44,951 nt of DNA. Origin: [Clostridium] clostridioforme AGR2157 (GTDB lineage Bacteria; Bacillota; Clostridia; Lachnospirales; Lachnospiraceae). Both the position numbers and the translations under genes were made by a program. A model generated the notes under the pieces. The model made no database searches and was not told the origin of the DNA. It saw only the letters and a list, made by a program, of their open reading frames with translations. Positions 6,021 to 33,731 of this stretch are shown here, in pieces (position 1 is the stretch's first letter; each line of letters starts with the position of its first letter). The stretch lies in assembly GCF_000424325.1 (NCBI RefSeq), contig NZ_AUJR01000041.1, positions 1 through 44,951 of the forward strand, written 5' to 3'.

Positions 6021-7022
6021 CTAATCCACATTTTCTTTCGTGACAAACTGCAAATCCACACTGTAATAGGAATTTGCATGCCCCTCCTGCAGATACTCCT
6101 CCAATGCCTGCACACAGTACCGCCCCATCTGCTCCGTATCGATGACAAGCGTTACCGGAATATTCCCCTTCCTGACAGCCTCCAGAAGCTGGTCCGACTT
6201 GTAATACCCCAGAAGCTGGAGCTCCCCCACCTTATTGTAGTCAATCATGGCCTGGTAGGCAGCCTCTGTATCCACGGCCTCGGTACACACCAGGACGTCC
6301 GGTATTCCCTCCTTGCGGAAGAATATGTTCCTGATGGTCTCGTCCGCATCCACCTTCCCGGTGGAGCGCATGGTCTCCTGTATGAGCCTGACCCTTCCCG
6401 ATGTGTCCGGGGAGGTCACCAGCAGGTTATTAATCTGTTCTGCAATCTGCACCTGACTGCTGTTATCCCTGTCGTGGAGCAGAAGCATCACCTCCACATC
6501 GTCCTTATCCGGCGGCACCAGCTTTAAAATCTGTTCCCCGTACTGCCGCCCCAGCTGGTAGTCGTTGACCCCCACAAAGCTTATGCGGCTGGTATCCGGA
6601 GCATCCTTGAGGACCGTGACCACAGGTATTCCCTCCTTACCAGCCTCATTAATCCGCTCATCTATCTTATGACCGCCCGTGTATTCCAGGATGATTCCGT
6701 CCACCCTGGAGGCAATGGCCATGTCCATGAGACTCTCTATCTCTATGGTGGAGGAGAGACTCTTGCCCATCAGCTCCACCAGGGCATTGTGCTCCCTGGC
6801 AGCCTCTCTGGTGCTCCCGTACACATCCTTCCAGAAAGGCATATCGGAATCCTCCACAATCATGACGTAATGGTAGCGGTATTCATTTCCATCCTCGCCG
6901 CCGTCCTCCCCCACCTGCTTTAAGACATTCTGGTAATAGGATCTGGTGACCAGCGTGAGGAACAGCACTACCAGTATTCCCGCAATTACAATTATCCGTT
7001 CCAAGCGTACCCGGTTTTTCAT
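6021..7022 (-). CDS. Membrane-anchored sugar-binding protein, probable sensor subunit
   Basis: 333 aa with one N-terminal transmembrane helix (about residues 9-27) and no lipobox, followed by a periplasmic-binding domain (Peripla_BP_4; EGIPVVTVLKDAP, SFVGVNDYQLGRQYG). It is the first gene of a run with a histidine kinase and a response regulator, spaced 21 nt from the kinase. Uncleaved, tethered binding proteins directly in front of YesM/LytS kinases are known as extracytoplasmic sensor subunits (XylFII with LytS for xylose in Clostridium beijerinckii). Here the role is inferred from position and anchoring; the ligand is unknown. Upstream is a 240-nt gap shared with a divergent small gene. 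Confidence 0.87.
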   Translation of the reverse strand: MKNRVRLERIIVIAGILVVLFLTLVTRSYYQNVLKQVGEDGGEDGNEYRYHYVMIVEDSDMPFWKDVYGSTREAAREHNALVELMGKSLSSTIEIESLMDMAIASRVDGIILEYTGGHKIDERINEAGKEGIPVVTVLKDAPDTSRISFVGVNDYQLGRQYGEQILKLVPPDKDDVEVMLLLHDRDNSSQVQIAEQINNLLVTSPDTSGRVRLIQETMRSTGKVDADETIRNIFFRKEGIPDVLVCTEAVDTEAAYQAMIDYNKVGELQLLGYYKSDQLLEAVRKGNIPVTLVIDTEQMGRYCVQALEEYLQEGHANSYYSVDLQFVTKENVD

Positions 7023-7262
7023 TGTTTTTTTGTGCCTGCCCTCTCAATCAGCCTCTTCTATTTTCCCCCAGCCACACATTATAATAAAATATCGGTATCC
7101 CTCTATTTTATAGCCGCCCCCAGTTCCTGTCAATCCGCCTTATCTTTTCACACTATCAAATCTCCCCCCGTCGTGCTATAATTAAATTATCACGTTCAGC
7201 CTGGGGCTTAGCCATAGAAGACCCGGCACACGGCAATGTAATGATATACGAGGGGGATGGTT

Positions 7263-7622
7263 ATGGTATTAAGATGTTTTTCGGCTCCGGATGAAAAGTT
7301 AAATCTCAGCTTTTATCCCTGCAGCTTTGACACTGGCCTGGGAGACCACTATACATACTGTAAGGAACCACTGTGCATTTATAAGACAGACTATACAAAA
7401 CTCCTGCTATCCTACCTGGAATCAGAATTCCCGGAATTTGACGTCTGTTGGGATAACCGCATACCTGCCGGGACCTGGAATATCATAATAGAGAAAATCG
7501 AAAATGACATGAGCCACATCCATTTCGACGATACTGTCTTTGACTTTTACAGCCGATTCATCGGCTGGATTGCAGATGCATTGGAGCAGGAGGATATAAT
7601 TATAGTGGAAGGGAACCAGTAA
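7263..7622 (+). CDS. Hypothetical protein, 119 aa
   Basis: A small acidic protein that I do not recognise. There is no signal peptide or transmembrane segment; aromatic and acidic residues are frequent (FYSRFIGWIADALEQEDI near the end). The start at ATG 7263 is chosen over 7257 because GAGGGGG ends directly against the first ATG and sits about six bases from the second. A TATAAT-like element lies at 7176-7181. It is divergent from the sensor operon and stands alone, followed by acetyltransferase debris on the other strand. It may be cytoplasmic; no function is proposed. Confidence 0.6.
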   Translation: MVLRCFSAPDEKLNLSFYPCSFDTGLGDHYTYCKEPLCIYKTDYTKLLLSYLESEFPEFDVCWDNRIPAGTWNIIIEKIENDMSHIHFDDTVFDFYSRFIGWIADALEQEDIIIVEGNQ

Positions 7623-7733
7623 GAAAGCGGCTGTAACTCACTTTTAAATGACAGCAGAAAAATGGTTTCATAGGGAGCCTTTGCCATATCTGCCAGCCGT
7701 ACCAAAAAACTGTAAAATATATTTTCATAATTC

Positions 7734-8084
7734 TTACAAAACATGATAGTGGGGAATGATGTCCTCATAATGCCCATCCTTCATCAGGAATCCTCCCGGT
7801 ATCACCCCCAGCTGCGTAAACCCAAGCTTTTCATACAGATGCAGCGCCGAAGCATTGCTCCTAACCACCGCGTTAAACTGCAGGATTCCAAATCCCAGCT
7901 CTTTTCCCTTTGCCATACAATGCTTCACCAGAGTCTCACCGATATGATGTCCCCGCAAATCAGCTCTTACCGCATAGCTTGCATTGCAGATATGGTCACA
8001 GCGCGCCTTAAGAAAATCAAGCCCCCCGCTTATATTACACACTTCATGGAATACCGGCATCCCCGAGTGGAAATTATTCTTCAT
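7734..8084 (-). pseudogene. GNAT acetyltransferase, C-terminal remnant
   Basis: From about residue 33 the reading frame matches the C-terminal two thirds of a GNAT N-acetyltransferase: DLRGHHIGETLV is the acetyl-CoA binding motif A, and LHLYEKLGFTQLG is motif B. Intact relatives are about 165 aa, so roughly the first 55 are missing. The ATG at 8084 directly abuts the stop of the amidohydrolase remnant and has no clear ribosome site, so the first 30 residues are probably junction sequence. Taken as a truncated gene. Confidence 0.7.
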
Positions 8085-8505
8085 TTAGTGATTCAGATAA
8101 GCATCCACAGATGCATTTGCCTTCTCGATGACAAGTGCTTCTTCTACACCGGTCAGCTGTCCTTCTTTTACAACGATCTTACCATTGACTACCGTGTAAT
8201 CTACACTGCCCTTCAATCCAACTGTACACAGCATGGATTTTACATCGTACTGGGCACCAACCAGTTCCAGTCGGTTTAAATCAATCATAAAGAAATCTGC
8301 TGCCATTCCCTCTGCAATCTGTCCCAGTTCTTTTCTTCCCAGAATTGATGCACTTCCTCTGGTATCCATTTTCAGGAAATCATAACCGTTAGGTGCTTTC
8401 TGACTCCAATTCAAACGATGAAGCAGATAAGCCACACGCATTTCCTCTAACAGATTGGAACCATCGTTACTATTTTACATTCTTAACCAGCAAAGTTCCC
8501 TTCAT
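8085..8505 (-). pseudogene. Amidohydrolase (deaminase type) with large internal deletion
   Basis: ATG 8505 has a good ribosome site (AAGGGGAT) and starts with MKGTLLVKNV, the usual opening of SsnA/8-oxoguanine-deaminase-like amidohydrolases. After about a dozen residues the frame is broken, and the sequence resumes near the C-terminus with DGSNLLEEMRVAYLLHRL, then GRKELGQIAEGMAADFF to the end. Intact relatives are about 450 aa, so some 300 residues, including all metal ligands of the barrel, are gone. Only the terminal beta-sandwich and tail remain. Cannot be catalytic. Confidence 0.7.
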
Positions 8506-21126: not shown

Positions 21127-21159
21127 TATATTATAACCAGCCCCGGGTGAAAAGACAAG

Positions 21160-21192
21160 TTAAAAGGCGGGACACTTATCGCATCCCGCCTT
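21160..21192 (-). terminator. Minus-strand terminator without a gene
   Basis: Arms 21164-21172 and 21184-21192 (9 bp) followed by TTTT on the minus strand. No minus-strand gene reads into it (the choloylglycine hydrolase is on the other strand), so it is a leftover of a lost gene or serves antisense transcription. Confidence 0.5.
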
Positions 21193-21302
21193 CCGGCATT
21201 GTTGAATCAACTCAAAGAACCTATGGCGGGGAATGTTCCTCCTACAAAAGGAATATACATAACCATAACTTCTACAAACTTCGTATAAAGGAGGTTTTGC
21301 CC

Positions 21303-22316
21303 ATGTGCACAGCTATGGTCACACAGACGTCCCAGGGGGACATTTATTTTGGCCGGACCATGGATTTTTCTTATCCCCTTGAACCAGAACTGTATGTGGT
21401 TCCCAAAGGTTATCAGTGGAACAATATCATGAACACCCACCAGGTCCGCAACCGTTACCGTTTCATGGGAATCGGACAGGACATATCCCCGGTGGTCTTT
21501 GCAGACGGTGTCAACGAGATGGGGTTCGGGGCCGCTGTCCTCTATTTCCCCGGCTATGCCCAGTATGATTCCCCTGACTCTGAGGATCCGTCCAGACCTG
21601 CCATCACAGCCCTGGAACTCACAGGATTTCTCTTAGGTTTAAGCGCATCCGTGGAGGAAGCAGCATCCCTTCTCCGCACCATCCGAATCGTTGGCGCCGA
21701 AGACTCCATAACCGGAACCGTTGCCCCGCTCCACTGGCTTGTGGCGGACCGGACCGGCAAATCCATGGTCATTGAAAAGACAGCCGACGGCCTGCATCTC
21801 ATGGATAACCCCATAGGAGTCCTCTCCAACAGCCCTGACTTCCAGTGGCACCTGACCAACCTGCGCAATTACATGAATCTCTCCTCCACGCAGAATCAGT
21901 CACAGACCTGGGGCAGTCTGGAGCTGACCCCCTTAGGACAGGGCACCGGCAGCTTTGGCCTGCCCGGTGATTACACTCCTCCTTCCAGGTTTGTCAGGAC
22001 CGCATTTCTAAAGACCCATACCCCCATTCCGGCAGGCAGGGAGGAAGCAGCGCTGACCTGTTTCCATATAATGGAAAGTGTCAGCATTCCAAAGGGCCCG
22101 GTCATCACCGGCCGGAATACGCCGGATTATACCCAGTACACAGCCTTCATCAACCTTTCCTCCAGAGAATACTTCTTCAGGACCTACGGCAGCAGCTGCA
22201 TCACCTCTGCATCACTGCCCGGCAATCCGGATACGGAAAGCGGCATGAAATCGCTGGCAGTCCTCAATCAGCCCGCTGCCTTTTGCCGATTACCCGCGTC
22301 TTCGGACACGTTCTAA
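21303..22316 (+). CDS. Choloylglycine hydrolase family (bile salt hydrolase/penicillin V acylase)
   Basis: 337-aa N-terminal nucleophile hydrolase. ATG 21303 is chosen because Met-Cys must open the protein: Cys2 becomes the nucleophile after Met removal, and AAAGGAGGTT lies just upstream. Arg18 and Asp21 (GRTMDF) stand at the catalytic positions known for bile salt hydrolases; the Asn of VLSNSPDFQWHL and the Arg of PPSRFVRTAF complete the set. It hydrolyses amides such as glyco- or tauro-conjugated bile acids, or penicillin V; the choice cannot be made from these motifs. No signal peptide, so cytosolic. Its 3' end overlaps the decayed kinase on the other strand by 27 bases. Confidence 0.92.
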   Translation: MCTAMVTQTSQGDIYFGRTMDFSYPLEPELYVVPKGYQWNNIMNTHQVRNRYRFMGIGQDISPVVFADGVNEMGFGAAVLYFPGYAQYDSPDSEDPSRPAITALELTGFLLGLSASVEEAASLLRTIRIVGAEDSITGTVAPLHWLVADRTGKSMVIEKTADGLHLMDNPIGVLSNSPDFQWHLTNLRNYMNLSSTQNQSQTWGSLELTPLGQGTGSFGLPGDYTPPSRFVRTAFLKTHTPIPAGREEAALTCFHIMESVSIPKGPVITGRNTPDYTQYTAFINLSSREYFFRTYGSSCITSASLPGNPDTESGMKSLAVLNQPAAFCRLPASSDTF

Positions 22317-23960: not shown

Positions 23961-24554
23961 CTATCTCAGTCCGGCCTCCCTCAGCATCCAGGCAATCCTG
24001 GCGCTTTCCTCCAGCTCTTCCAGGCAGTAAAAGGCGTCCATCAGATTTTTTCCCGGCACCACTGCCCCGTGCTGCTTCAGCAGATAGCCGTCGCTTTCCA
24101 TCACACGCTGCTCAAAAGCGTCAAACAGTGCCTGGGAACCCGGCTTCTCGTAGGGAACCAGCCCCACCTTACCCAGCTTCATCTTCAGATACGGGGTATG
24201 GTCCGGGATTGCGTCTGTTTCGTCCTCAGCCGGCACAAAGCTCCACAGCACCCCATAGGTGCCATGGGTATGCAGGATAGCGCCTGTTCCCGGCTTTTTC
24301 TGGTATACCTTCAGATGCAGGGGCCATTCCTTGCTGGGCTTGCTGCTGCTCAGACATTCCCCGTTCATATCCATGACTGAAAATTCATCCTCTTTCAGGG
24401 TTCCAAAGCAGCTTCCGCTCTGGCTGATGTACATCCTTCCATCATGGAAAAAACTCATATTAGCCGATGAACCGGCTGTCTTGTTCCTCTCAAACAGACT
24501 CCTTCCAATCCAGACCGCGTCCTTTAATTTCTGCGCTAACTCCTTGTCCATCAT
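23961..24554 (-). CDS. otnC: 3-oxo-tetronate 4-phosphate decarboxylase (class II aldolase family)
   Basis: 197-aa cytosolic class II aldolase/adducin-fold enzyme. Zinc ligands are visible in ILHTHGTYGVLWS (His-x-His) and LLKQHGAVVPGKN (third His). It follows the OtnK kinase with a 4-nt ATGA overlap, so the two are translationally coupled. In the characterised OtnK/OtnC pathway the kinase phosphorylates a 3-oxo-tetronate and this enzyme decarboxylates it to dihydroxyacetone phosphate. Length fits (about 210 aa). Other class II aldolases (L-fuculose-P type) look alike, but the kinase partner favours OtnC. Read from the sigma-54 promoter in front of otnK. Confidence 0.85.
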   Translation of the reverse strand: MMDKELAQKLKDAVWIGRSLFERNKTAGSSANMSFFHDGRMYISQSGSCFGTLKEDEFSVMDMNGECLSSSKPSKEWPLHLKVYQKKPGTGAILHTHGTYGVLWSFVPAEDETDAIPDHTPYLKMKLGKVGLVPYEKPGSQALFDAFEQRVMESDGYLLKQHGAVVPGKNLMDAFYCLEELEESARIAWMLREAGLR

Positions 24555-25822
24555 TTTCCTTCCTCCATCCGCGTCATCTCCAACACTTTCACAAAAAACT
24601 CTTCCTGCCCGAAATTCCCGGACTTTAATACAAGGCGAAGCGACTCATTCTCCATGGGCACCATGACCGGCACTCCGGGCGCCACGCTGGCGCCAATCTG
24701 GTAGGAAGAAAATCCCAGCCGTTTTGTCACCGCACCGGAGGTCTCTCCCCCTGCCACCACCACTCTCCTGATTCCATGGGCCACTGCCCGTTCCGCCAGC
24801 TTGGCGGCTGCCTGTTCCAGCATCTCTGCCACACGCTCCTGCCCGTATTGCTGCACTTCCTTCACATTTCGGGCTGTATCAGAGCTGTACACCAGCACCG
24901 GGGTTCCCCAGTTTTCTCTCACAAACTTCCACGCGTCCTCCAAAGTCTCCCTGTCCTCAAGCATGGCCACAGGGTCCATCTTATAGCTGAGTCCGCCGTG
25001 GGCCTGGAAATAGTCAATCTGCCCCAGGGTAGCCTTGGAACAGCTTCCCGCAAGCAGAATGGCGGATCCCTCTGCCTGAATATCAAGCTCCGGCAGCATC
25101 TCCTGCCGGCTGCTCAGCCGTTTTGCAAGCGGCTCCAGAATCCCGCTTCCGCCTGTCAGCAGGGCCAGATCCCCGAACAGCTCCACAATCCGTTCCCCAT
25201 CCTCCATATCCCGGTAATCCGGTATCACATAGAAATGCTCCTGCCCGTCCGCTTGTTCCGTAAGCATGGCAAGGATTTCATCTGCCGGCCTGTTCATCTG
25301 CTCCTTCCAGAGCTCCACACAGGGGTACTTGCTCTGGGGCTTCATCAGGTTGGCGATTCTGGAGTCCCACATGGGAGTCAGAGGATGCTTCTTCATAGGG
25401 CTCTCATGCAAAGGCACATCGCCCACATACAGTTCCCCATTTCTTACCACACGTCCGTTGACAGGCAGCGCCGGGCACAGTACCGTATAGGACACCCCAA
25501 GGAATTCCATGGCGGCGTCTGCAACAGGGCCAATATTCCCCTCCGGAGTAGAGTCAAAGGTGGAACAGTATTTCAGATAAAATTTCTCCACGCCCTGCTC
25601 CTTCAGCCAGCCAAGGGACCGCATGGTATCCGCCACTGCCTCCCCGATATCCTGGGTCCTTGATTTAAGCGCTATCACAATAGCCTGTACTCCCTCCGCA
25701 ATCCTGCTTCCTTTTGCCGGAATCCCGTTAAAGAGCTGGACCGACATGCCTCCCTTTACCAAAAATGAAGCTGCGTCGCTGGCGCCTGTAAAATCATCGG
25801 CTACACATCCGAATATTGGCAT
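24551..25822 (-). CDS. otnK: 3-oxo-tetronate kinase (four-carbon acid sugar kinase)
   Basis: 423-aa cytosolic kinase of the DUF1537 family. The N-terminal substrate domain opens with GCVADDFTGASDAA (conserved DDxTGA); the C-terminal nucleotide domain has VVVAGGETSGAVTKRLG. Full length for the family. ATG 25822 follows AGGAGGTAAACT. Family members phosphorylate 3-oxo-tetronates from D-threonate, L-threonate or D-erythronate; close relatives act on 3-oxo-isoapionate. A near-consensus sigma-54 promoter and TGTTGCA elements lie upstream, shared with the divergent activator. No pdxA2 or tetronate dehydrogenase (ltnD/denD) is in the window. Confidence 0.92.
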   Translation of the reverse strand: MPIFGCVADDFTGASDAASFLVKGGMSVQLFNGIPAKGSRIAEGVQAIVIALKSRTQDIGEAVADTMRSLGWLKEQGVEKFYLKYCSTFDSTPEGNIGPVADAAMEFLGVSYTVLCPALPVNGRVVRNGELYVGDVPLHESPMKKHPLTPMWDSRIANLMKPQSKYPCVELWKEQMNRPADEILAMLTEQADGQEHFYVIPDYRDMEDGERIVELFGDLALLTGGSGILEPLAKRLSSRQEMLPELDIQAEGSAILLAGSCSKATLGQIDYFQAHGGLSYKMDPVAMLEDRETLEDAWKFVRENWGTPVLVYSSDTARNVKEVQQYGQERVAEMLEQAAAKLAERAVAHGIRRVVVAGGETSGAVTKRLGFSSYQIGASVAPGVPVMVPMENESLRLVLKSGNFGQEEFFVKVLEMTRMEEGK

Positions 25823-25867: not shown

Positions 25868-25885
25868 TAGCAAATTTCATGCCAA
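25868..25885 (-). promoter_or_regulatory. Sigma-54 promoter of otnK-otnC
   Basis: Minus strand TTGGCATGAAATTTGCTA: -24 GG at 25883-25882 and -12 GC at 25871-25870, exactly 10 nt apart, matching the RpoN consensus TGGCAY-N5-TTGC. About 45 nt before the start codon. Confidence 0.88.
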
Positions 25886-25925
25886 CATGAATCACAGCCT
25901 TCCTGCTTTGTTCTTCAGCCATATA

Positions 25926-25955
25926 TGTTGCAAAACCGTTGACCAAACTGTTGCA
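25926..25955. promoter_or_regulatory. Upstream activator sites (TGTTGCA, 23-nt spacing)
   Basis: TGTTGCA occurs at 25926-25932 and 25949-25955, starts 23 nt apart, with a weaker GTTGACC between them. They lie 40-90 nt upstream of the sigma-54 promoter, the usual place for enhancer-binding-protein sites, and recur at the other two sigma-54 promoters. Confidence 0.7.
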
Positions 25956-26009
25956 TTATTGTAGAATCGAAACAGCAACAACTGTACCATCCGCCATAGG
26001 AGGCCCGCT

Positions 26010-27908
26010 ATGATTCATATACTATTCATTGTACCATATCCTGAACTTCGGGAAAAGGTTGAGTATGTCTTAGACAACCATCCTGAAAACAAACGAATTT
26101 CCGCCAACATACAGGTATTGACAGTTGACCAGATTTCACGGATTAATGCAGGAAGCTACGATGCTGTCATCGCCCGGGGGTTCAGTGCTAAACAGCTGAA
26201 AGCCATGCATCCCCAGACTCCCGTTATCGACCTGGCCATTTCCGGTTATGATATCATACGCACGGTAGCTGAATGCCGCAAAGATTTTAATTCCACACAG
26301 ATTGCCATTTGCGGATTTTACGGAAAAATATATGAGGCCTCCGACATATGCAAACTGTTAGGATGCGAAGTGGAAATTTATCCGGCCAGCAATCACAGGG
26401 ACCTGGAAGCCAACATAGACGAGGCCGTCGCCCATGGATGTGACGCGCTAATCGGAGGATACTCCGCTGTAGAGCTGGCTGAAAGACATGGCATCCCATC
26501 CCGCCTGATACGTACCGGAGAGGATACCATCCTTCAGGCAATCAATGAGGCCATACGCACGGTCGAACAGATACAGATCGAACGAATTGTCGCCGAGACC
26601 TATAAGACCATCATATACGCGTCCAAGGACGGCATCCTGTATATTGATTCCTCCGGTACCATACGGGTACGCAACCGGGTGGTCAAAGCCATGAACAACA
26701 ATATCAGCCTGCTGTCAAGGTCTCTGCAGACAACCCTTCCCTATCTCTACAAATCCTTTAGCGAGGTTTTAAAGGGGGGGCAGGAAATAAACGGCAGCAT
26801 TCTTACCATCCCCAAAAGCAACCTTACCGTATCCGCCTCCTTTGTTCCTGTTGTGGTCAATAACAACATTTCCGGCGTCGTGATTACCTTATCTGATATA
26901 ACTGAGATACAGAAGCTGGAAAATCAAATCCGCCGGAGCCTCAGCGAAAAAGGACTCCGTGCAAAATATACCTTTGGCGACATTATTCATAAGAGCGCTG
27001 TCATCGACGCCACCATTGATACGGCGCGCAGATATGCTGCCTCGGATTCCAATGTCATCATTGTGGGAGAAACCGGGACAGGAAAAGAATTGTTTGCACA
27101 GAGCATACACAATGCCAGTCCTCGTAAAAATGGACCTTTTGTCGCCATCAACTGTGCCGCTCTACCGGAAAATCTGCTGGAAAGCGAGCTCTTTGGCTAT
27201 GTGGAGGGCGCCTTTACCGGCAGCGTCAAAGGCGGCAAAATGGGACTCTTTGAACAGGCGCACGGCGGAACCCTGTTTCTGGATGAAATCGATGAATCCC
27301 TTTCCACCCAGACCAAGCTGCTGCGGGTCCTCCAGGAACGTGAGGTCAGAAGAATTGGTGATAACAAGGTCATCTCCATCAATGTCCGCATTATTTCCGC
27401 CACCAATAAAAGCATCAATCAGCTTGCCGGCAAAGAACTGTTCCGCCGTGATTTGATGTACCGCCTGGATGTTCTGAGAATTTTCCTCCCCCCTCTTCGC
27501 CAGAGAGACCGGGACGCGGAACTTCTGTTCCTGCATTTGTTGCGGCAGCGGGGGCAGGAGTGCGGGATACCTGTTCCCGAAATCAATCTTTCGGCCTTAT
27601 CTGTCCTTAATGATTATCCATTTAATGGAAATATAAGGGAACTGCGCAACATTGTAGAGCGCTCTCTGGTAATCTGCTCCGGAAATGCCATCACCAGAGA
27701 TGATTTGCTAAGGGCGCTATATCCCCAGGATTTAGAGGATTCATCTCCGGTTCCTGTCTATACTGCATCTCAGACCTCCAGCGAAGAAAGTTCCATCATA
27801 TGGGCACTTGGAGAATGCGGCGGCAATCAGACCAGGGCTGCCAGGCTGCTGGGTATTAACCGTTCTACACTATGGAGAAAAATGCAGAAATATAATATAA
27901 AAATATAA
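26010..27908 (+). CDS. PrpR-type sigma-54-dependent transcriptional activator
   Basis: 632-aa enhancer-binding protein. Residues 1-185 match the PrpR N-terminal sensing domain (AVIARGFSAKQLK, GYDIIRTV); about 195-310 a PAS-like domain; 320-555 the AAA+ sigma-54 interaction domain with Walker A GETGTGKE, the sigma-contact loop GAFTGS (Ser for the usual Ala), Walker B GGTLFLDEID and arginine finger region FRRDLMYRLDVL; 585-632 a Fis-type helix-turn-helix (GGNQTRAARLLGINRSTLWR). ATG 26010 follows AGGAGGCCCGCT. Divergent from otnK. PrpR-type sensors respond to organic acids or phosphorylated intermediates; the ligand here is probably an intermediate of the tetronate-like pathway. Confidence 0.93.
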   Translation: MIHILFIVPYPELREKVEYVLDNHPENKRISANIQVLTVDQISRINAGSYDAVIARGFSAKQLKAMHPQTPVIDLAISGYDIIRTVAECRKDFNSTQIAICGFYGKIYEASDICKLLGCEVEIYPASNHRDLEANIDEAVAHGCDALIGGYSAVELAERHGIPSRLIRTGEDTILQAINEAIRTVEQIQIERIVAETYKTIIYASKDGILYIDSSGTIRVRNRVVKAMNNNISLLSRSLQTTLPYLYKSFSEVLKGGQEINGSILTIPKSNLTVSASFVPVVVNNNISGVVITLSDITEIQKLENQIRRSLSEKGLRAKYTFGDIIHKSAVIDATIDTARRYAASDSNVIIVGETGTGKELFAQSIHNASPRKNGPFVAINCAALPENLLESELFGYVEGAFTGSVKGGKMGLFEQAHGGTLFLDEIDESLSTQTKLLRVLQEREVRRIGDNKVISINVRIISATNKSINQLAGKELFRRDLMYRLDVLRIFLPPLRQRDRDAELLFLHLLRQRGQECGIPVPEINLSALSVLNDYPFNGNIRELRNIVERSLVICSGNAITRDDLLRALYPQDLEDSSPVPVYTASQTSSEESSIIWALGECGGNQTRAARLLGINRSTLWRKMQKYNIKI

Positions 27909-27917
27909 TTCAATTCA

Positions 27918-27978
27918 TGCAATGGTGTTGCACATTTTGTTGTGATATCGTTGCATTTTTTGCTGTAATACTGTTGCA
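27918..27978. promoter_or_regulatory. Upstream activator sites, three copies at 23-nt steps
   Basis: TGTTGCA at 27926-27932, CGTTGCA at 27949-27955 and TGTTGCA at 27972-27978; starts are 23 nt apart. TGCAATGGTGTTGCA at 27918-27932 is an inverted repeat. They lie about 100 nt before the sigma-54 promoter at 28080. Confidence 0.72.
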
Positions 27979-28079
27979 ATCGCACTCCCCCTCACCCCCC
28001 CGGTGTATTTCTCACTATATCGACCTTTTTCTTGTGTCTTTTATGAAGCTTTTATTATTTTTAGCCGATATCCATATAC

Positions 28080-28097
28080 TTGGCATAATAATTGCTT
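28080..28097 (+). promoter_or_regulatory. Sigma-54 promoter in front of permease remnant
   Basis: TTGGCATAATAATTGCTT: -24 GG at 28082-28083 and -12 GC at 28094-28095, 10 nt apart. The permease coding sequence resumes mid-gene about 30 nt later. Confidence 0.87.
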
Positions 28098-28127
28098 TAA
28101 ACAACTGCATCGAGCAATAGGAACACG

Positions 28128-28697
28128 CCATGCTCCGGCCCTGCCGGGGTGGTCAGTCTCCGGGGTATCCTGTCCTTAAACGACGGTCCATTTCTTACCA
28201 TGATTGCACTGGGCACCACCGGCCTTGCGGAAATTCCAATTCTGTCTCTGGTAGCAGCCATAGTTCCTCTGATTATCGGTATGATTTTGGGCAATCTGGA
28301 TTAAGATTTCAAGGTGCTGTTATCCAACGGATTAGCTATGCTGCTTCCCTTTAACGGCTTTGTGCTGGGAGCCAATACAAGCCTGTTTACTATTGCAAAG
28401 GCCGGTGCCGGCGGTATTGTCCTTGGACTTATAACTGTTTTGTTTACGGGTGTGCTAACTTATTACCTGTACAGCCTGATTCGAAGAAAACCGGATCCCA
28501 TGGGAATGGCCATTGGTACCACCGGAGGCAATGCTGTAGCTGTACCTGCATCCGTTGCCATGGCGGATCCTTCCCTGGAGCCGGTAGTGGGCGTGGCTAC
28601 CGCGCAGGTAGCTGGCGCTGTTGTTATCACAGCCATTCTGACCCCCATTTTGACCGGATTCTTTGCCAGAAGGGCTGCTAAAAGGCAGCAGAAATAA
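28128..28697 (+). pseudogene. 2-keto-3-deoxygluconate-type permease, N-half lost
   Basis: C-terminal half of a KdgT-family sugar-acid:H+ symporter. Homology starts abruptly near 28128 ([20 protein letters not shown]) without start codon or ribosome site, only 30 nt past the sigma-54 promoter. An in-frame TAA at 28302-28304 follows GMILGNLD, where a Glu codon is expected. The rest is open and well conserved (LLPFNGFVLGANTSL, GNAVAVPASVAMADPSLEP) to the stop at 28697. The first ~150 residues were deleted and a nonsense change followed. The former role was import of the sugar acid consumed by this regulon. Confidence 0.85.
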
Positions 28698-28736
28698 TGA
28701 TGAGCTTAATTGCATTGAAAGAAAGTGAGGACTTTT

Positions 28737-29893
28737 ATGGAACGTTATATCATTAAGGCAAACAAAATCATAGCGGGAGATCAGCTGGAAGTCATGGAAA
28801 ACAGCGGGCTTCTGATTGAAAATGGAAAAATCCAAAAAATATACGATAATATCTTTCAAGTTGAAATACCAGAGCAAACAAACGTAATTGATTATGGCGA
28901 TAAGGTAATCATCCCCGGCATGATTGACTGCCACAACCATCTGGCATTAGACGCCAGACTTGAAAATCACCTGGTCAAAATGGAGGACTGCGAGGCAGAG
29001 CAGACCATACGCGCCATTAAAACCATGAAGGACGACCTGGCAGCCGGTGTAACCACCTCCAGATGTCTGGGAGACAGGTTCTATATTGATGTAATATGTA
29101 AAAAGGCGCAGAAGGAAGGACGTATCGCAGGACCGAAGCTGGTTGTCAGCGGCATCGGCATGCGCAGCAGCCATGGGCATGGATATGTAGGAATGCCCCA
29201 TTGCGGCGCGGAAGCTTTCCGCAGGACCTCCAGGGAAAATATCCCCGCGGTGTTGATTTTCTGAAAGTATTCATGACAAAGGTAATCAATGCAACCCCTT
29301 TCATCTATCACTTTTTGACCTTAGAGGAACTGAAGGCAGTGGTGGAAGAAGCAAAAAGCGTGAATATAACCACAGCCTGCCATTGCTCAGGGGGACAGGG
29401 ATTAGACGACTGCCTGACTGCGGGCATTGACTGTCTGGAACATGTGTATTATATCACCCAGCCCCAGGTGGAGCGCGTTAAAAAAGAGGACCGCTGGGTG
29501 GTATATACTCCCAGCTACGCCCTGAACGACCAGCTGTTATTCAAGTTCTCGCCTCATGACAGGGAGGGGAGCCTTCGTGAAAAGGAAATTATCTGCAAGT
29601 GCTTATCCGGCGCCATTGAGGGCGGACTTAAGTTTGGCATTGGCACTGACGGGCTGCATCAGGGTTTGGCGCAGGAAGCATGCTATATCTCTGGTCTGGG
29701 TGCTAAAAACCGGGATGTACTGGCCGGAATCACAATCAACGCGGCTCGGATCTGCGGGGTAGACGGAAACACCGGCTCTATCGCGGAAAGAAAAGCAGCT
29801 GATTTTGCAGTCCTGGAAGGCAATCCGTTAGATGATATCGAAGCTTTAAAGAAGGTTACATCTGTTATCCAGGACGGAACCATTATCTTCTAA
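28737..29893 (+). pseudogene. Amidohydrolase (imidazolonepropionase-like) with frameshift
   Basis: ATG 28737 follows AAGTGAGG. The N-terminal part includes IPGMIDCHNHLALDA (metal-binding HxH) and runs to a stop at 29264. The continuation is in another frame from about 29245 (RGVDFLKVFMTKVIN), with the metal/active-site pieces TTACHCSGGQGLDD and GIGTDGLHQG, ending with the usual GSIAERKAADFAVLEGNPLD at 29893. A one-base change near 29245 would restore an enzyme of about 385 aa with all catalytic blocks, so the lesion is recent or a sequencing error. It lies behind the permease remnant in the sigma-54 operon; a lactonase/amidase role on the regulon substrate is possible. Confidence 0.82.
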
Positions 29894-29941
29894 ATTATTA
29901 GGGGAGCACTGCTTTGCTGTTAAATCTCCCTTTCCATCTGC

Positions 29942-29991
29942 AAAAAGGATGCTGCTGCAAACTGAATTCGCTTTGCAGCAGCATCCTTTTA
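29942..29991. terminator. Bidirectional terminator
   Basis: Perfect 19-bp stem (29943-29961 with 29972-29990), 10-nt loop, with T-runs on both strands. It separates the converging amidohydrolase and oxidoreductase genes. Confidence 0.9.
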
Positions 29992-30032
29992 TTCTGTGTC
30001 ACATCTATATCATGTTAAAGCCTGTGTTACAA

Positions 30033-31403
30033 TCAAAGCTTCAATCCTTCGTTATATAATTCATAAGGAAGGCTTCCTGACAAATCCACCACATTCTTTG
30101 TTATGGGCTGCCCTGCCTTTACATCCTCCAGCAGTGTTGTACCATTTAACAGATAGAATGGAGCCACATTTCCCGCATCCTTAAGTTCCCACAATTCCGG
30201 AACCAGGCCCTCGATGGAATGATGATGTCCCTGGACCTTAAGTACGGTTCCCCTGGGCATGTCCTTCTGAGCCACACCGGTCATAACGGAAACCTGACGG
30301 CATTCAGAGTGGGTACCCAGTCCCAGGATATCTCCTAACAGAATGGATATGGGCGTCTCCAGTCCCATATAATGATAAGGAAGATAGATACATGCATATT
30401 TACCATTACGGCTTACCACATGCCCTTTACTTGTAAGCAGTTCCCATACCGTTTCATTCTCGCATCTGATGATGATGAACTCACCACCTGCAAAACTGGC
30501 CTCATCCGGCGCACGCAGATTGCAGAATACATCTACCACGCCAGTCTTCTTAAGTATGCCGCCATCTTCCTCCGGAATAAAGATATCTGCCAGTTCGCTG
30601 ATCTTTGCAACAGGATAATTCAGACGTCTGTCAGACGGCACCAGCCCGGTGACATTGGACACAAGATTCATCTCGCAAAGGTCGGCGGAAATAACTGCCA
30701 TATATTTTTCTAACAGCTTACGGCGTCCCTCCAATGTCTCACGGCCTTCATAATGCCAGAACTCCTTCAGACCAGGAATATTCTCATGTGGTTTTTCAGG
30801 GCCTTCCATATAAGTGAATTCGTCAGTATCCGGATCCCATACAAAGTCATACTCGCTGGCTTTGCCCGCTGCTATGATCTCTAATCCCAATACTTTTCCC
30901 CAAGAGTAAAGATCCAGAAGGTTTCTTGGCTGATCTCCGTTAACCAGAGAGTATACGGTGCCGTGTTTCTCAGCAATATTATTTAAAATAGGGCCGCACA
31001 CGCTGTCAGTCTCCTTTGAAACCATGTAAACATTGATTCCCTTCTTTAATGCGGCCGCGGATACCTCTGAGCTCACAGCCGTGTTTCCCGTACACTCAAC
31101 CAATGCCGTAATATCGCTTTCCAGAACCAGCCGGTAGTCATTTACAATAAGAACCCCATGGCTGGGAGCGCTCTGGACCTGCTCTTTATTCCCGCATATA
31201 ATAATATCCTCTTTCTTATATCCAAGACCTGTGAGCACCTCTACACATTCGTCCGTATGCCGTGAAGATATCAGCCTCAGTTCCATTAACTCAACCTTTG
31301 GAATTTGTGCCAACAGCGTATAGCCATAGCCGCGGGTTGCACCTATAATTCCTACTTTTGACTTTTTTCCGCCGTTGTTCTTAAATAAACTTGTGTAATC
31401 CAT
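30033..31403 (-). CDS. DXR-like/homoserine-dehydrogenase-like NAD(P) oxidoreductase with SAF domain
   Basis: 456-aa cytosolic oxidoreductase of the COG4091 type. An N-terminal Rossmann fold (KVGIIGATRGYGYTLLAQI, about 15-35), a conserved VECTGNTAVSSEVSAAAL helix, a central DRL-like catalytic domain, and a C-terminal SAF domain (about 370-440, MPRGTVLKVQG). ATG 31403 is chosen for spacing to AAAGGAAA. The family includes the Brucella DXR-like enzyme; other members have no assigned reaction. A sigma-54 promoter and TGTTGCA sites link it to the otnK/otnC regulon, where it could supply the oxidation (or oxidation plus isomerisation) that makes the 3-oxo acid for OtnK. That role is inference. Confidence 0.83.
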   Translation of the reverse strand: MDYTSLFKNNGGKKSKVGIIGATRGYGYTLLAQIPKVELMELRLISSRHTDECVEVLTGLGYKKEDIIICGNKEQVQSAPSHGVLIVNDYRLVLESDITALVECTGNTAVSSEVSAAALKKGINVYMVSKETDSVCGPILNNIAEKHGTVYSLVNGDQPRNLLDLYSWGKVLGLEIIAAGKASEYDFVWDPDTDEFTYMEGPEKPHENIPGLKEFWHYEGRETLEGRRKLLEKYMAVISADLCEMNLVSNVTGLVPSDRRLNYPVAKISELADIFIPEEDGGILKKTGVVDVFCNLRAPDEASFAGGEFIIIRCENETVWELLTSKGHVVSRNGKYACIYLPYHYMGLETPISILLGDILGLGTHSECRQVSVMTGVAQKDMPRGTVLKVQGHHHSIEGLVPELWELKDAGNVAPFYLLNGTTLLEDVKAGQPITKNVVDLSGSLPYELYNEGLKL

Positions 31404-31546
31404 ATCGCGCATTTCCTTTCTGTTTTGTATTTTTCTTTTCACCCTGCCTGTAACAGCCGTTTCTGCCTCATTCTGTCTGAATGTCAAGAGCAGTCTGTGA
31501 TGCTTCAGGTAATGATATGAGTATATTTACTACTACTAAACTATAA

Positions 31547-31564
31547 TAGCAAATATCATGCCAA
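31547..31564 (-). promoter_or_regulatory. Sigma-54 promoter of the DXR-like oxidoreductase
   Basis: Minus strand TTGGCATGATATTTGCTA: -24 GG at 31562-31561, -12 GC at 31550-31549, 10 nt apart. It differs from the otnK promoter at only one position. Confidence 0.88.
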
Positions 31565-31681
31565 AAACAGATTGACGAAAATATAACAGAATTTTTACCC
31601 AAAAAACCAGTAAAATAAGGGCGCTGTCAAAACATAAGAAACATGGTAATATGCTGATTCAATTAAACTTCGTGACATGTA

Positions 31682-31717
31682 TGCAACAAAAACAGTCAAC
31701 AATGCAACAGCGTTGCA
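31682..31717. promoter_or_regulatory. Upstream activator sites
   Basis: TGCAACA at 31682-31688 and 31703-31709; the second is half of the perfect inverted repeat TGCAAC-AGC-GTTGCA (31703-31717). About 120 nt upstream of the sigma-54 promoter; same motif as at otnK and the permease. Confidence 0.7.
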
Positions 31718-31752
31718 ACTGCTGCTAAATGCTCTATTTCTCAGATGTCTTA

Positions 31753-32148
31753 TCATCCAGTCTTTTGGGGACATCTCCCCGCATCATTAGCCACCCCCAC
31801 ATTCTTAGTCACCACCACATCGCTCCCCAGCCCCAGCACGTCCGCCACCACCACCTGTCCAATATGCACCGGTGCCTGGATACGTATTTTTTTTATTTCA
31901 GCGACCACATCAAATATCCTGGATTTTGGGATTGGGTTTGTCAGGCGGACGCCGGCCAGCTCCAGCTCCCCATTCTCCACCAGGACTGATGTGGCAATGT
32001 TTCTCATGGGATTGACCAGTTCCCGGGTCACATAATCCATTCCCTTGGGACACGTGTTTCCGGTTATGGATTCTATTTTGCCGCCGCTCCATTCCGCCTC
32101 GATACGGCAGCCCTGGGGACACATGATGCAGACAAATTCTCGTTTCAT
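31753..32148 (-). CDS. DUF1667 protein
   Basis: 131-aa cysteine-containing protein: CIMCPQGCRIEAEW at the N-terminus and NTCPKGMDYVTRELVNP next, the four-Cys pattern of DUF1667. Such proteins accompany FAD-dependent oxidoreductases in anaerobic glycerol-3-phosphate-type operons and probably bind an iron-sulfur or zinc centre. The start overlaps the FAD-oxidoreductase stop by 4 nt. The last ~10 residues (DAGRCPQKTG) are unlike the family and may come from a deletion removing the true stop. Its partners are broken, so it may be stranded. Confidence 0.85.
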   Translation of the reverse strand: MKREFVCIMCPQGCRIEAEWSGGKIESITGNTCPKGMDYVTRELVNPMRNIATSVLVENGELELAGVRLTNPIPKSRIFDVVAEIKKIRIQAPVHIGQVVVADVLGLGSDVVVTKNVGVANDAGRCPQKTG

Positions 32149-32757
32149 GAAATCCTCACCTCCAGCCCCTGCTCTGTATTCAGCTTATCCGCCCCTATGG
32201 GAATCTGTATCATCTCCGCCGGAATGGCCCGCTTCATCCTCCGCATCCCGATAACCCTGTTTCCCTGAAATACCTCTATGGTACAGTTTTCCCGCGGCTC
32301 CCTAACCCGCAGGGAAAGCTTGAATCCGACGGAGCCGCTTATCCTACGAGGAACTGTATGAGTCACCTGTCCGTCTGTCCTTATCTCCAGGGGACAGTAG
32401 GCAAATGGCCTGACCTGATATACCGGACCACGCCATCCGCCAGACTCTCCGCCTCCAGGGATACGAAATCCACCAGGTCGTGGACCTGGAGAACATTACC
32501 GGCGGCAAAGATTCCCTCCACGCTGGTCTGGTAATGTTCATCCACCACGGCTCCCCTGCTGCGCTCATCCAGCACTACGCCTGCTCCCAGAGATAACTCA
32601 TTCTCCGGTATCAGGCCTACGGAGAGAATCAACGTATCACAGGCATACTCCTTTTCCGTCCCCGGAATAGGGCGCATGTTCCGGTCCACCTGTGACACCG
32701 CCACGGATTCCAGGCGCTCTATCCCCCTTATGTCCGTGACTGTATGGCTAAGATACA
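32145..32757 (-). pseudogene. FAD-dependent oxidoreductase, C-terminal remnant
   Basis: The minus-strand frame 32381-32704, with upstream continuation, reads RGIERLESVAVSQVD, DTLILSVGLIPENELSLGAG, VEGIFAAGNVLQVHDLVD: the C-terminal FAD/NAD domain of a pyridine nucleotide-disulfide oxidoreductase of the glycerol-3-phosphate operon type. A one-base lesion near 32398 shifts the frame, and the tail continues to 32145. The N-terminal half, with the dinucleotide-binding GxGxxG, is missing; the left junction at about 32757 joins a GntR fragment. Confidence 0.8.
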
Positions 32758-33027: not shown

Positions 33028-33573
33028 CTATTTTTTCGCCCGGCATACAGCTCCCCCTGTCTCATCCCTGTCACTGCTTTGGGCAGAGAGCAAATAGTCG
33101 ATAATGCGGATATCATGCTTATCCACTTCCCTGAATTCATATCCTGTATGGAATATCTTCTGCCCCTTTGCCGAGATACACGGTATGGTCCTGCCCTCAA
33201 AGACCGCGCTTCCAAAATAATCCGCCTCAAATTCATACCATCCGCCTTCCAGGTCCGCCTGCTTTGCAGTTCCATCCTCGTTGATTACAAATGGATGGAT
33301 ATCCACATAACTCAGCTCCGGGTGGCAGAGTTCAATCCGCACCGGGCGCCAGTCCGTCGTGATTTCATACCCATGGGAAACCAATGTGCGGAGCAATGCG
33401 TCTGTATACCGGGCATCAAAGTTAATATCCACGTCCCTGTGCTCCCTGGTCTGTTTCCCAAGCAGCACATCCACACCCCAGCCGCCGTCCAGCCAGTACC
33501 GCATGCCAGATGTCTCCATCAGGTCCAATACTTTCAATAAATCTGCCTTTGTTACTGTCTCTTTTTTTATCAT
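33028..33573 (-). CDS. Lincosamide/aminoglycoside nucleotidyltransferase-like protein
   Basis: 181-aa nucleotidyltransferase-fold protein (PF10706, Lnu(A)-like). The core YWLDGGWGVDVLLGKQTREH followed by RDVDINFDA holds the GGW motif and the two metal-binding Asp; SYVDIHPFV and PCISAKGQKIFHTGYE follow as in LnuA. ATG 33573 follows GGCGGAG. Relatives adenylylate lincomycin/clindamycin, but many chromosomal homologues have untested activity, so resistance should not be assumed. The last ~10 residues may be altered by the junction with the downstream remnant. It stands alone. Confidence 0.85.
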   Translation of the reverse strand: MIKKETVTKADLLKVLDLMETSGMRYWLDGGWGVDVLLGKQTREHRDVDINFDARYTDALLRTLVSHGYEITTDWRPVRIELCHPELSYVDIHPFVINEDGTAKQADLEGGWYEFEADYFGSAVFEGRTIPCISAKGQKIFHTGYEFREVDKHDIRIIDYLLSAQSSDRDETGGAVCRAKK

Positions 33574-33731
33574 AAAATCTCCGCCTTTCCCCATAAACTG
33601 CTCATCTGATGCTTTCTGTCACTGCATCAAGTTTACCATATTTCTCCCCTCATATCTACCCGGTTCAGCAGCTGAAACGGAGGAGAAATGGAAACCGGGA
33701 GAACCCATCGGACCTCCCGGCATTCCAGATA

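Follow-up and report, generated by a model that had tools for sequence, protein, structure and literature searches.

INTRODUCTION

In the four-step L-threonate route (LtnD-OtnI-OtnK-OtnC), OtnK requires 3-oxo-tetronate, which LtnD and OtnI make, and an Aldolase_II-type OtnC is assigned to 3-oxo-tetronate 4-phosphate, according to PMC12540250. Here, we describe a locus of [Clostridium] clostridioforme AGR2157 that encodes predicted OtnK and OtnC proteins together with an oxidoreductase of the DRL family, a PrpR-type sigma-54 activator, and three sigma-54 (-24/-12) promoters preceded by copies of the hexamer GTTGCA. The locus lies on contig NZ_AUJR01000041.1, and the whole analyzed stretch of 44,951 nucleotides (nt) is hereafter called the window. 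It resembles described OtnK/OtnC tetronate catabolism in that its OtnK scores above the NCBIfam cut-off and its OtnC is of the Aldolase_II type. However, none of LtnD, OtnI, and DenD is among the identified cluster proteins (not all open reading frames [ORFs] were identified, and no search was aimed at OtnI), and the DRL-family oxidoreductase is found instead. The mode of control differs as well: a DeoR-family regulator is described for Brucella (PMC10580937), whereas sigma-54 control is predicted here.

For sigma-54 control, the closest comparison is a reconstruction of Clostridiales regulons, which comprises 39 activator groups (PMC6615313), 15 of which use inverted TGT-N10-12-ACA sites, with most activator sites located 100-250 bp from the promoter. 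Our locus shares with these regulons the -24/-12 consensus, an activator beside its targets, and multiple upstream sites, but same-strand GTTGCA copies in helical phase dominate here and, in the window, they sit 48-160 nt upstream of the promoters. The genes otnK, otnC, and DRL are not among the named targets in Table 1 of that paper (where some targets are listed as hypothetical). The activator has AAA+ and HTH_8 domains in common with PrpR and PrdR, and PrpR_N in common with PrpR, but it scores below both curated cut-offs (TIGR02329, 369.7 of 499.2; NF041552, 395.3 of 795) and has different neighboring genes. A term search of the text of a 2025 survey (PMC12316311) returned no mention of tetronate or PrpR. 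Among the literature matches listed, none linked DXR-II, SAF, or DUF1537, or sigma-54 with four-carbon acids, to such a regulon, and nothing useful on D-apionate oxidoisomerase or on gut threonate/erythronate pathways was found.

Promoters and sites are observed directly, with their conservation and their phasing along the helix, as is the association of DRL with otnK-otnC (otnKC) and the activator. Altogether, these results leave us confident that a real, conserved sigma-54 regulon joins otnKC, a carboxylate transporter, and DRL, with GTTGCA as the common upstream element. The regulon is a new combination of known parts.

RESULTS

Three perfect promoters are preceded by clustered GTTGCA copies

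A preliminary description of this stretch had listed three near-identical -24/-12 promoters, and all of them prove to be perfect matches to the consensus TGGCAYN5TTGCT: TGGCATGAAATTTGCT before otnK-otnC (25884-25869, minus strand), TGGCATAATAATTGCT before a kdgT remnant (28081-28096, plus strand), and TGGCATGATATTTGCT before the DRL gene (31563-31548, minus strand). These three lie within 5.7 kb of the window, while the genome as a whole (G000; a draft assembly of 4.94 Mb in 133 contigs) contains 12 perfect matches, and the reversed-pattern control gives none. With the other nine as the basis, the chance of finding three perfect promoters in 5.85 kb is P ~2e-7. When the pattern is loosened to allow up to two mismatches, the window shows no enrichment (15 found versus 28.8 expected).

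The predicted activator sites are concentrated before these promoters. Of the window's 20 GTTGCA/TGCAAC hexamers, nine fall within 170 nt upstream of one of the three promoters, where 0.126 would be expected (P ~2e-14). Two copies with starts 23 nt apart lie at 25927-25955 (plus strand), and three copies spaced 23 and 23 nt apart lie at 27927-27978 (plus strand). The third cluster, at 31682-31719 (minus strand), combines same-strand copies 11 and 21 nt apart with an inverted copy (TGCAAC-AGC-GTTGCA). The preliminary description had reported the sites as clusters of TGTTGCA before each promoter, with a 23-nt interval between the starts 25926/25949 and between the starts 27926/27949/27972, and with an inverted pair at 31703-31717. 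The positions and the inverted pair are correct and the upstream clustering is real, but the longer word does not hold throughout, since C precedes the middle copy of the second cluster and 27949-27955 reads CGTTGCA. An enrichment of TGTTGCA over the window as a whole was considered and rejected, since the nine occurrences compare with 7.8 expected and 39 of 100 shuffles reach as many.

Across G000, the spaced pair GTTGCA-N14-18-GTTGCA occurs six times, four of them at the locus, and its reversed control occurs once. At the nine other perfect sigma-54 sites of this genome, GTTGCA is found within 200 nt at none and within 300 nt at one (the L021 locus; individual loci and genomes are designated by L and G numbers). 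Since some of the nine look intragenic, this control is weakened.

GTTGCA is conserved in relatives and helically phased

For the related loci, hexamers were counted over the 170 nt that precede each perfect -24/-12 site, with the near-copies L001 and L014 dropped beforehand. GTTGCA ranked first of 1361 hexamers. It precedes 22 of the 25 perfect sites (found in 16 of 18 loci), where 1.17 would be expected, and comparison with the nine other sites of G000 gives a Fisher P of 4e-6. The three sites without it are L010 4628, L016 3770, and L019 5, the last of which has very little sequence before it. Eight further loci joined the set afterward; of their 20 perfect sites, 16 are preceded by GTTGCA, with one miss in L090 and three in L098. 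In the combined set, from which L001, L014, L019, L086, L087, and L092 were dropped, 38 of 44 promoters carry GTTGCA (in 23 of 25 loci) and 32 carry at least two copies; this set shares promoters with the first count, and only 20 of the 44 are new. Around classical DRL genes, a copy is present at two of seven perfect sigma-54 sites.

The spacing of the copies points to the helical repeat of DNA. Among the 32 same-strand GTTGCA pairs separated by 7-45 nt, 24 are spaced 9-12 or 19-23 nt apart. The best period is 10.6, and only 1 of 5000 jittered sets was as strongly periodic. Exactly 23 nt separates the copies of six pairs (three of them in the window), a number reached in 0 of 5000 jittered sets; the jitter null leaves the kinship of the loci uncorrected in both comparisons. 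The earlier claim of 23-nt phased sites thus survives as helical phasing, but 23 nt is just one spacing within the ranges of 9-12 and 19-23 nt. Because both ranges are used, exact 23-nt spacing is rejected as a general rule.

DRL, otnK, otnC, and the activator are linked across relatives

A scan with the DRL protein gave 19 loci, and searches of family and genus genomes added more. Close DRL genes are uncommon: at E 1e-40, 6 of the 299 genomes of the family have one. The linkage counts rest on 26 non-duplicate loci in which a close DRL occurs, leaving out the duplicates L014, L086, and L092 and the loci L090, L091, L093, and L094, which have no close DRL. DRL is present in 26 of 26 because the loci were chosen by it. 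Within ~9.5 kb of DRL, otnK is present in 20 of the 26 loci, otnC in 20, an activator in 22, and all four genes in 18. This co-occurrence, together with the GTTGCA copies described above, is what the preliminary description had proposed to look for in relatives. Six loci lack a nearby otnK; two of these (L005 and L019) are cut contigs with otnK elsewhere in their genomes.

The linkage is also seen when the search starts from the activator, which was found at E 1e-200 in 8 of 17 genomes of the genus. Around these eight activators, otnK and otnC are present in all eight cases and a DRL-family gene in seven (that of L090 being of a kind with 29% identity; the eighth, L091, is a cut contig). Near classical Bacillota DRL genes, otnK and otnC were found in 0 of 20 stretches of 14-20 kb at E 1e-6.

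In 8 of the 26 loci, otnK, otnC, and DRL share one strand (L002, L004, L012, L013, L015, the window, L001, and L087), although in the window, L001, and L087 they lie further from DRL. The carriers vary across the 26 loci: GntP in 13, KdgT in 5 (one of which is the window remnant), TctA in 4, MatC in 2, and none of these in 2. A zinc alcohol dehydrogenase is present in 13 loci and an amidohydrolase in 7, never in the same locus. The profile of DenD (NF043036), which we take to be the D-erythronate enzyme, matched 0 of 13 genomes, with the controls equally silent.

The window encodes predicted OtnK, OtnC, and sigma-54 activator proteins

Domain and profile searches agree with the gene kinds named in the preliminary description (otnK, otnC, an activator with PrpR_N, sigma-54 AAA+, and HTH_8 domains, and a DRL oxidoreductase), with the qualification that OtnC falls below its curated cut-off. 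The otnK gene (24551-25822, minus strand) encodes a predicted 3-oxo-tetronate kinase (DUF1537) that scores 434.7 bits against NF043035, above the cut-off of 350. The otnC product (23961-24554, minus strand) matches PF00596 at E 1e-38, and its best family is NF043034, at 173.8 bits against a cut-off of 250; the OtnC proteins of L012 (174.0) and L009 (180.7) also score below this cut-off.

The activator gene (26010-27908, plus strand) encodes PF06506 (PrpR_N), PF00158 (AAA+; 216.9 bits), and PF02954 (HTH_8; 52 bits) domains. The protein has the features of a sigma-54 enhancer-binding activator, i.e., an AAA+ domain with Walker A and B motifs (GETGTGKE and GGTLFLDEI) and a GAFTG loop (GAFTGS), a Fis-type helix-turn-helix, and adjoining -24/-12 promoters with upstream sites. 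In the activator tree, a core clade of 19 rows includes the window's protein, with support of 100/99; the tree omits two pieces shorter than 380 amino acids (L001 and L008), and the interrupted L006 activator entered as its longest stop-free piece.

The sigma factor gene itself can be part of the cluster, as rpoN lies inside it in 5 of the 26 loci (L010, L012, L013, L015, and L016). No other rpoN was found in the genomes of L010, L015, and L016, a result that is provisional since all three are metagenome assemblies, while the genomes of L012 and L013 have a second rpoN. G000 has one rpoN, away from the locus. In the genome of L016 (G712), the cluster activator is the single strong PF00158 match, at 235 bits, with the other three at 33.5 or less.

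Elsewhere in G000, contig C5 contains further sigma-54 promoters (102692-115676; L039-L041), with TGAAACA repeats upstream in L040 and L041, and also bears other PrpR-type activators.

The DRL protein belongs to a deep clade of its own

The DRL gene (30033-31403, minus strand) encodes an NAD(P)-type oxidoreductase that scores 88.6 bits against PF21135, where the cut-off is 27. Its likely start is the ATG at 31403, chosen from the alignment, within an ORF that extends to 31487. The predicted structure has a mean predicted local distance difference test score of 85.3, and its top Foldseek match is Brucella DRL (3upl, E 2.7e-29), followed by an acetaldehyde dehydrogenase and sugar-type NAD(P) oxidoreductases (E 3e-7 or weaker), with an ordinary DXR at 4e-6. 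In sequence searches, the only solved structures matched are 3upl and 3upy, both Brucella DRL.

In a 50-row tree, which retains the near-copies L001, L087, and the window as well as L011 and L014, the window protein groups with 26 relatives, and the stem of this group measures 2.68 changes per column. This group is separate from 20 classical Bacillota DRL proteins (support 100/100 and 100/98), which were not assigned singly to DXR-II or DLO, and from a small second group (L090, L093, and L094).

For DXR-II, PMC3847144 names Lys191, Lys193, and Thr229 as fosmidomycin anchors and Arg320 in the dimer cavity. The window protein resembles the DXR-II/DRL and DLO enzymes treated there in fold, in PF21135, in Lys191 (Lys in 27 of 27 rows of the clade), and in a Pro-Tyr-His motif. 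In contrast, Lys193 is replaced in all 27 rows (Ser in 26, Thr in 1), compared with Lys in 19 of 20 classical rows; Arg320 is lost in all 27 (Tyr in 16, Leu in 7, and four others once each), compared with Arg in 20 of 20 classical rows; and the genomic partners are different. The position of Thr229 falls in an alignment insertion of the window's protein. Since Lys193 and Arg320 are lost throughout, we regard DRL as a relative of DXR-II that is not a member of it, and an assignment of the gene as DXR-II was rejected on these grounds together with the separate clade. The few relatives with source names, among 120 listed, are labeled "homoserine dehydrogenase."

In L090, a member of the second DRL clade (6716-8110; 29% identity) fills the DRL slot, adjoining otnC-otnK and a core-clade activator. 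In L007 (8759-14135), DRL is accompanied by TctA, a transaldolase-like protein, a GntR regulator, and a xylose-isomerase-like protein in a genome with no OtnK match, perhaps reflecting another downstream route.

The permease-amidohydrolase arm looks broken in this genome

According to the preliminary description, the plus-strand promoter controls a KDG-type permease and an amidohydrolase. The promoter and the kinds of gene are as described, but neither gene is whole. Homology to the KdgT-type permease starts at 28167, and the remnant (28167-28697, plus strand) lacks its 5' part and contains an in-frame TAA; the intact ORFs of relatives have 335 (L001) and 320 (L004) amino acids. The amidohydrolase is split into a first piece (28737-29264, plus strand) and a second piece in another frame (29216-29893, plus strand; PF01979), and it forms a single frame of 385 amino acids in L001 and L004. 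Because the import arm looks broken, uptake in this genome would need another carrier.

Damage of this sort differs among three close relatives, affecting the permease and amidohydrolase in the window, the activator in L087, and the activator in G309 (L049 and L086). The L087 activator is broken by inserted DNA that carries HTH_32 and DDE_3 transposase ORFs (L087 7023-8389) and that we take to be of the IS630 type, and the G309 activator contains one in-frame TAG. Near the locus, a DUF1667 ORF and a partial Pyr_redox_2 ORF (31753-32704) look like pieces of broken oxidoreductase genes; since these also look broken, some of the breaks near the locus may be assembly errors.

A choloylglycine hydrolase family protein, possibly of the bile-salt or penicillin V acylase type, is encoded at 21147-22316 of the window (PF02275, 303 bits), and an aminoglycoside 2''-adenylyltransferase family protein is encoded near the locus, at 33028-33594 (PF10706, 209 bits).

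DISCUSSION

A candidate pathway for a four-carbon sugar acid

Taken as a whole, the locus is probably a sigma-54 regulon that handles a four-carbon sugar acid, with the local PrpR-type activator doing the switching and DRL making the substrate of OtnK. In such a pathway, the acid would be sensed through the PrpR_N part of the activator, as family knowledge suggests. The activator would then bind the GTTGCA copies in phase on one face of the DNA and touch sigma-54 RNA polymerase through its GAFTG loop, so that all three promoters would be switched on together by the protein encoded between them. Judging from the known families of transporters, the acid would be imported by a carboxylate carrier, i.e., KdgT, GntP, MatC, or TctA, depending on the genome. 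DRL would oxidize the acid, or oxidize and rearrange it, to 3-oxo-tetronate, which OtnK would phosphorylate and OtnC would then decarboxylate to dihydroxyacetone phosphate.

The role of DRL is proposed because, among the oxidoreductases found, it alone accompanies otnKC in loci of both carrier types; we accordingly favor DRL as the entry enzyme to OtnK/OtnC, if by a narrow measure. The preliminary description had likewise proposed a first step new to OtnK/OtnC, which we infer from this linkage. Its broader proposal of one ligand-controlled pathway fits the single conserved regulon of otnKC, carrier, and DRL with a common GTTGCA element, but not the state of the permease-amidohydrolase arm in this strain. 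Naming any particular substrate would be doubtful. One conceivable scheme draws on the comparison with D-apionate oxidoisomerase and on the chemistry of the reductoisomerase family run in reverse: the DRL clade would act as an oxidoisomerase that converts a branched four-carbon acid, e.g., 2-(hydroxymethyl)glycerate, to 3-oxo-tetronate, within a self-contained regulon that has helically phased direct-repeat enhancers and, in some Clostridia, the sole sigma-54 of the genome traveling in its cluster. We consider this scheme quite improbable.

Alternative explanations

Several observations weigh against parts of this interpretation. Those that concern the activator would fit a situation in which GTTGCA serves a wider group of PrpR-type activators, or some other protein altogether, with the local activator being one of several users and the regulon being cross-wired. 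The motif may belong to such a wider group because sites occur without a core-clade activator and at paralogue loci. Specifically, in L012, L015, L018, and L098 the sites go together with a linked activator that falls outside the core clade (the search there covered the loci and not the rest of the genomes), and the promoters of L002 and L013 carry two GTTGCA copies in genomes where no core-clade activator was found. The protein at 26010, which the preliminary description had named as the only activator nearby, is thus the nearest candidate for the window's sites, but in 6 of the 26 loci the sites are accompanied by a different linked activator or by none at all. Furthermore, the nearest paralogue in G000 (L021, 45%) has two TGCAAC copies that precede its own promoter by ~264 and 280 nt, L127 has one copy 138 nt upstream of its sigma-54 promoter, and the recognition helices of the activators are nearly alike. 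On the other hand, none of the nine other perfect sites in G000 has GTTGCA within 200 nt, two of those on contig C5 having TGAAACA repeats instead, and the cluster activator of G712 is the single strong one in its genome; we therefore judge cross-wiring to be rather unlikely. Individual promoters also depart from the pattern. Three of the five perfect sites of L098 and the DRL promoter of the near-copy locus L001 lack a GTTGCA copy, within 170 nt in the case of L098. The preliminary description would have expected the activator to be accompanied by its targets and sites in relatives: otnKC adjoins all eight activators of the genus, but in L090 the promoter that precedes DRL, otnK, and otnC on their common strand lacks GTTGCA in the 170 nt upstream.

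Other observations bear on the enzymes. OtnC scores below its curated cut-off, although NF043034 is its best-scoring family. DRL is present without any OtnK match in the genomes of L007, L018, and L098 (all three with TctA) and of L008, a cut contig. LtnD-like genes (NF043037, below cut-off) occur elsewhere in the genome in 10 of 13 genomes searched, which makes other first-step enzymes possible. DRL might therefore handle a different acid, with OtnK being fed by such an unlinked LtnD-type enzyme or by the zinc alcohol dehydrogenase, which directly adjoins DRL in all 13 loci that have it. However, the other 13 loci lack that dehydrogenase although 10 of them contain otnKC, several loci have DRL and otnKC on a common strand, and in L090 the slot is taken by a second DRL clade, so that we regard a separate acid for DRL as unlikely. 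That DRL is an isoprenoid (DXR-II) enzyme present by happenstance is extremely improbable: the fold, the Pfam family, and the best solved match to Brucella DRL would suit it, but the separate clade on its long stem, the residue changes in 27 of 27 rows, and the linkage to otnKC under the same promoter type speak against it. Finally, the locus in this strain could be a decaying remnant in which the promoters are conserved and the pathway no longer works, as the truncated kdgT, the split amidohydrolase, and the lesions in close relatives would suggest. Since the otnK, otnC, activator, and DRL frames are open here, the three promoters are perfect, and a draft assembly may contain errors like those suspected in the nearby ORFs, we consider decay of the whole pathway somewhat unlikely.

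Implications

A sigma-54 regulon that unites otnKC, a carboxylate carrier, and DRL lies outside the named targets of the compiled Clostridiales list (PMC6615313). With it, OtnK/OtnC metabolism gains a predicted entry step, and a testable function can be proposed for a deep DRL clade in which the named members are called "homoserine dehydrogenase." Genomes that have their sole rpoN found in the cluster, including one where a single activator match is strong, would provide simple natural cases for the study of sigma-54 control in Clostridia. For the bacteria themselves, this gene set, which is carried by many Clostridia and partly broken in the present genome, likely allows feeding on a small sugar acid.

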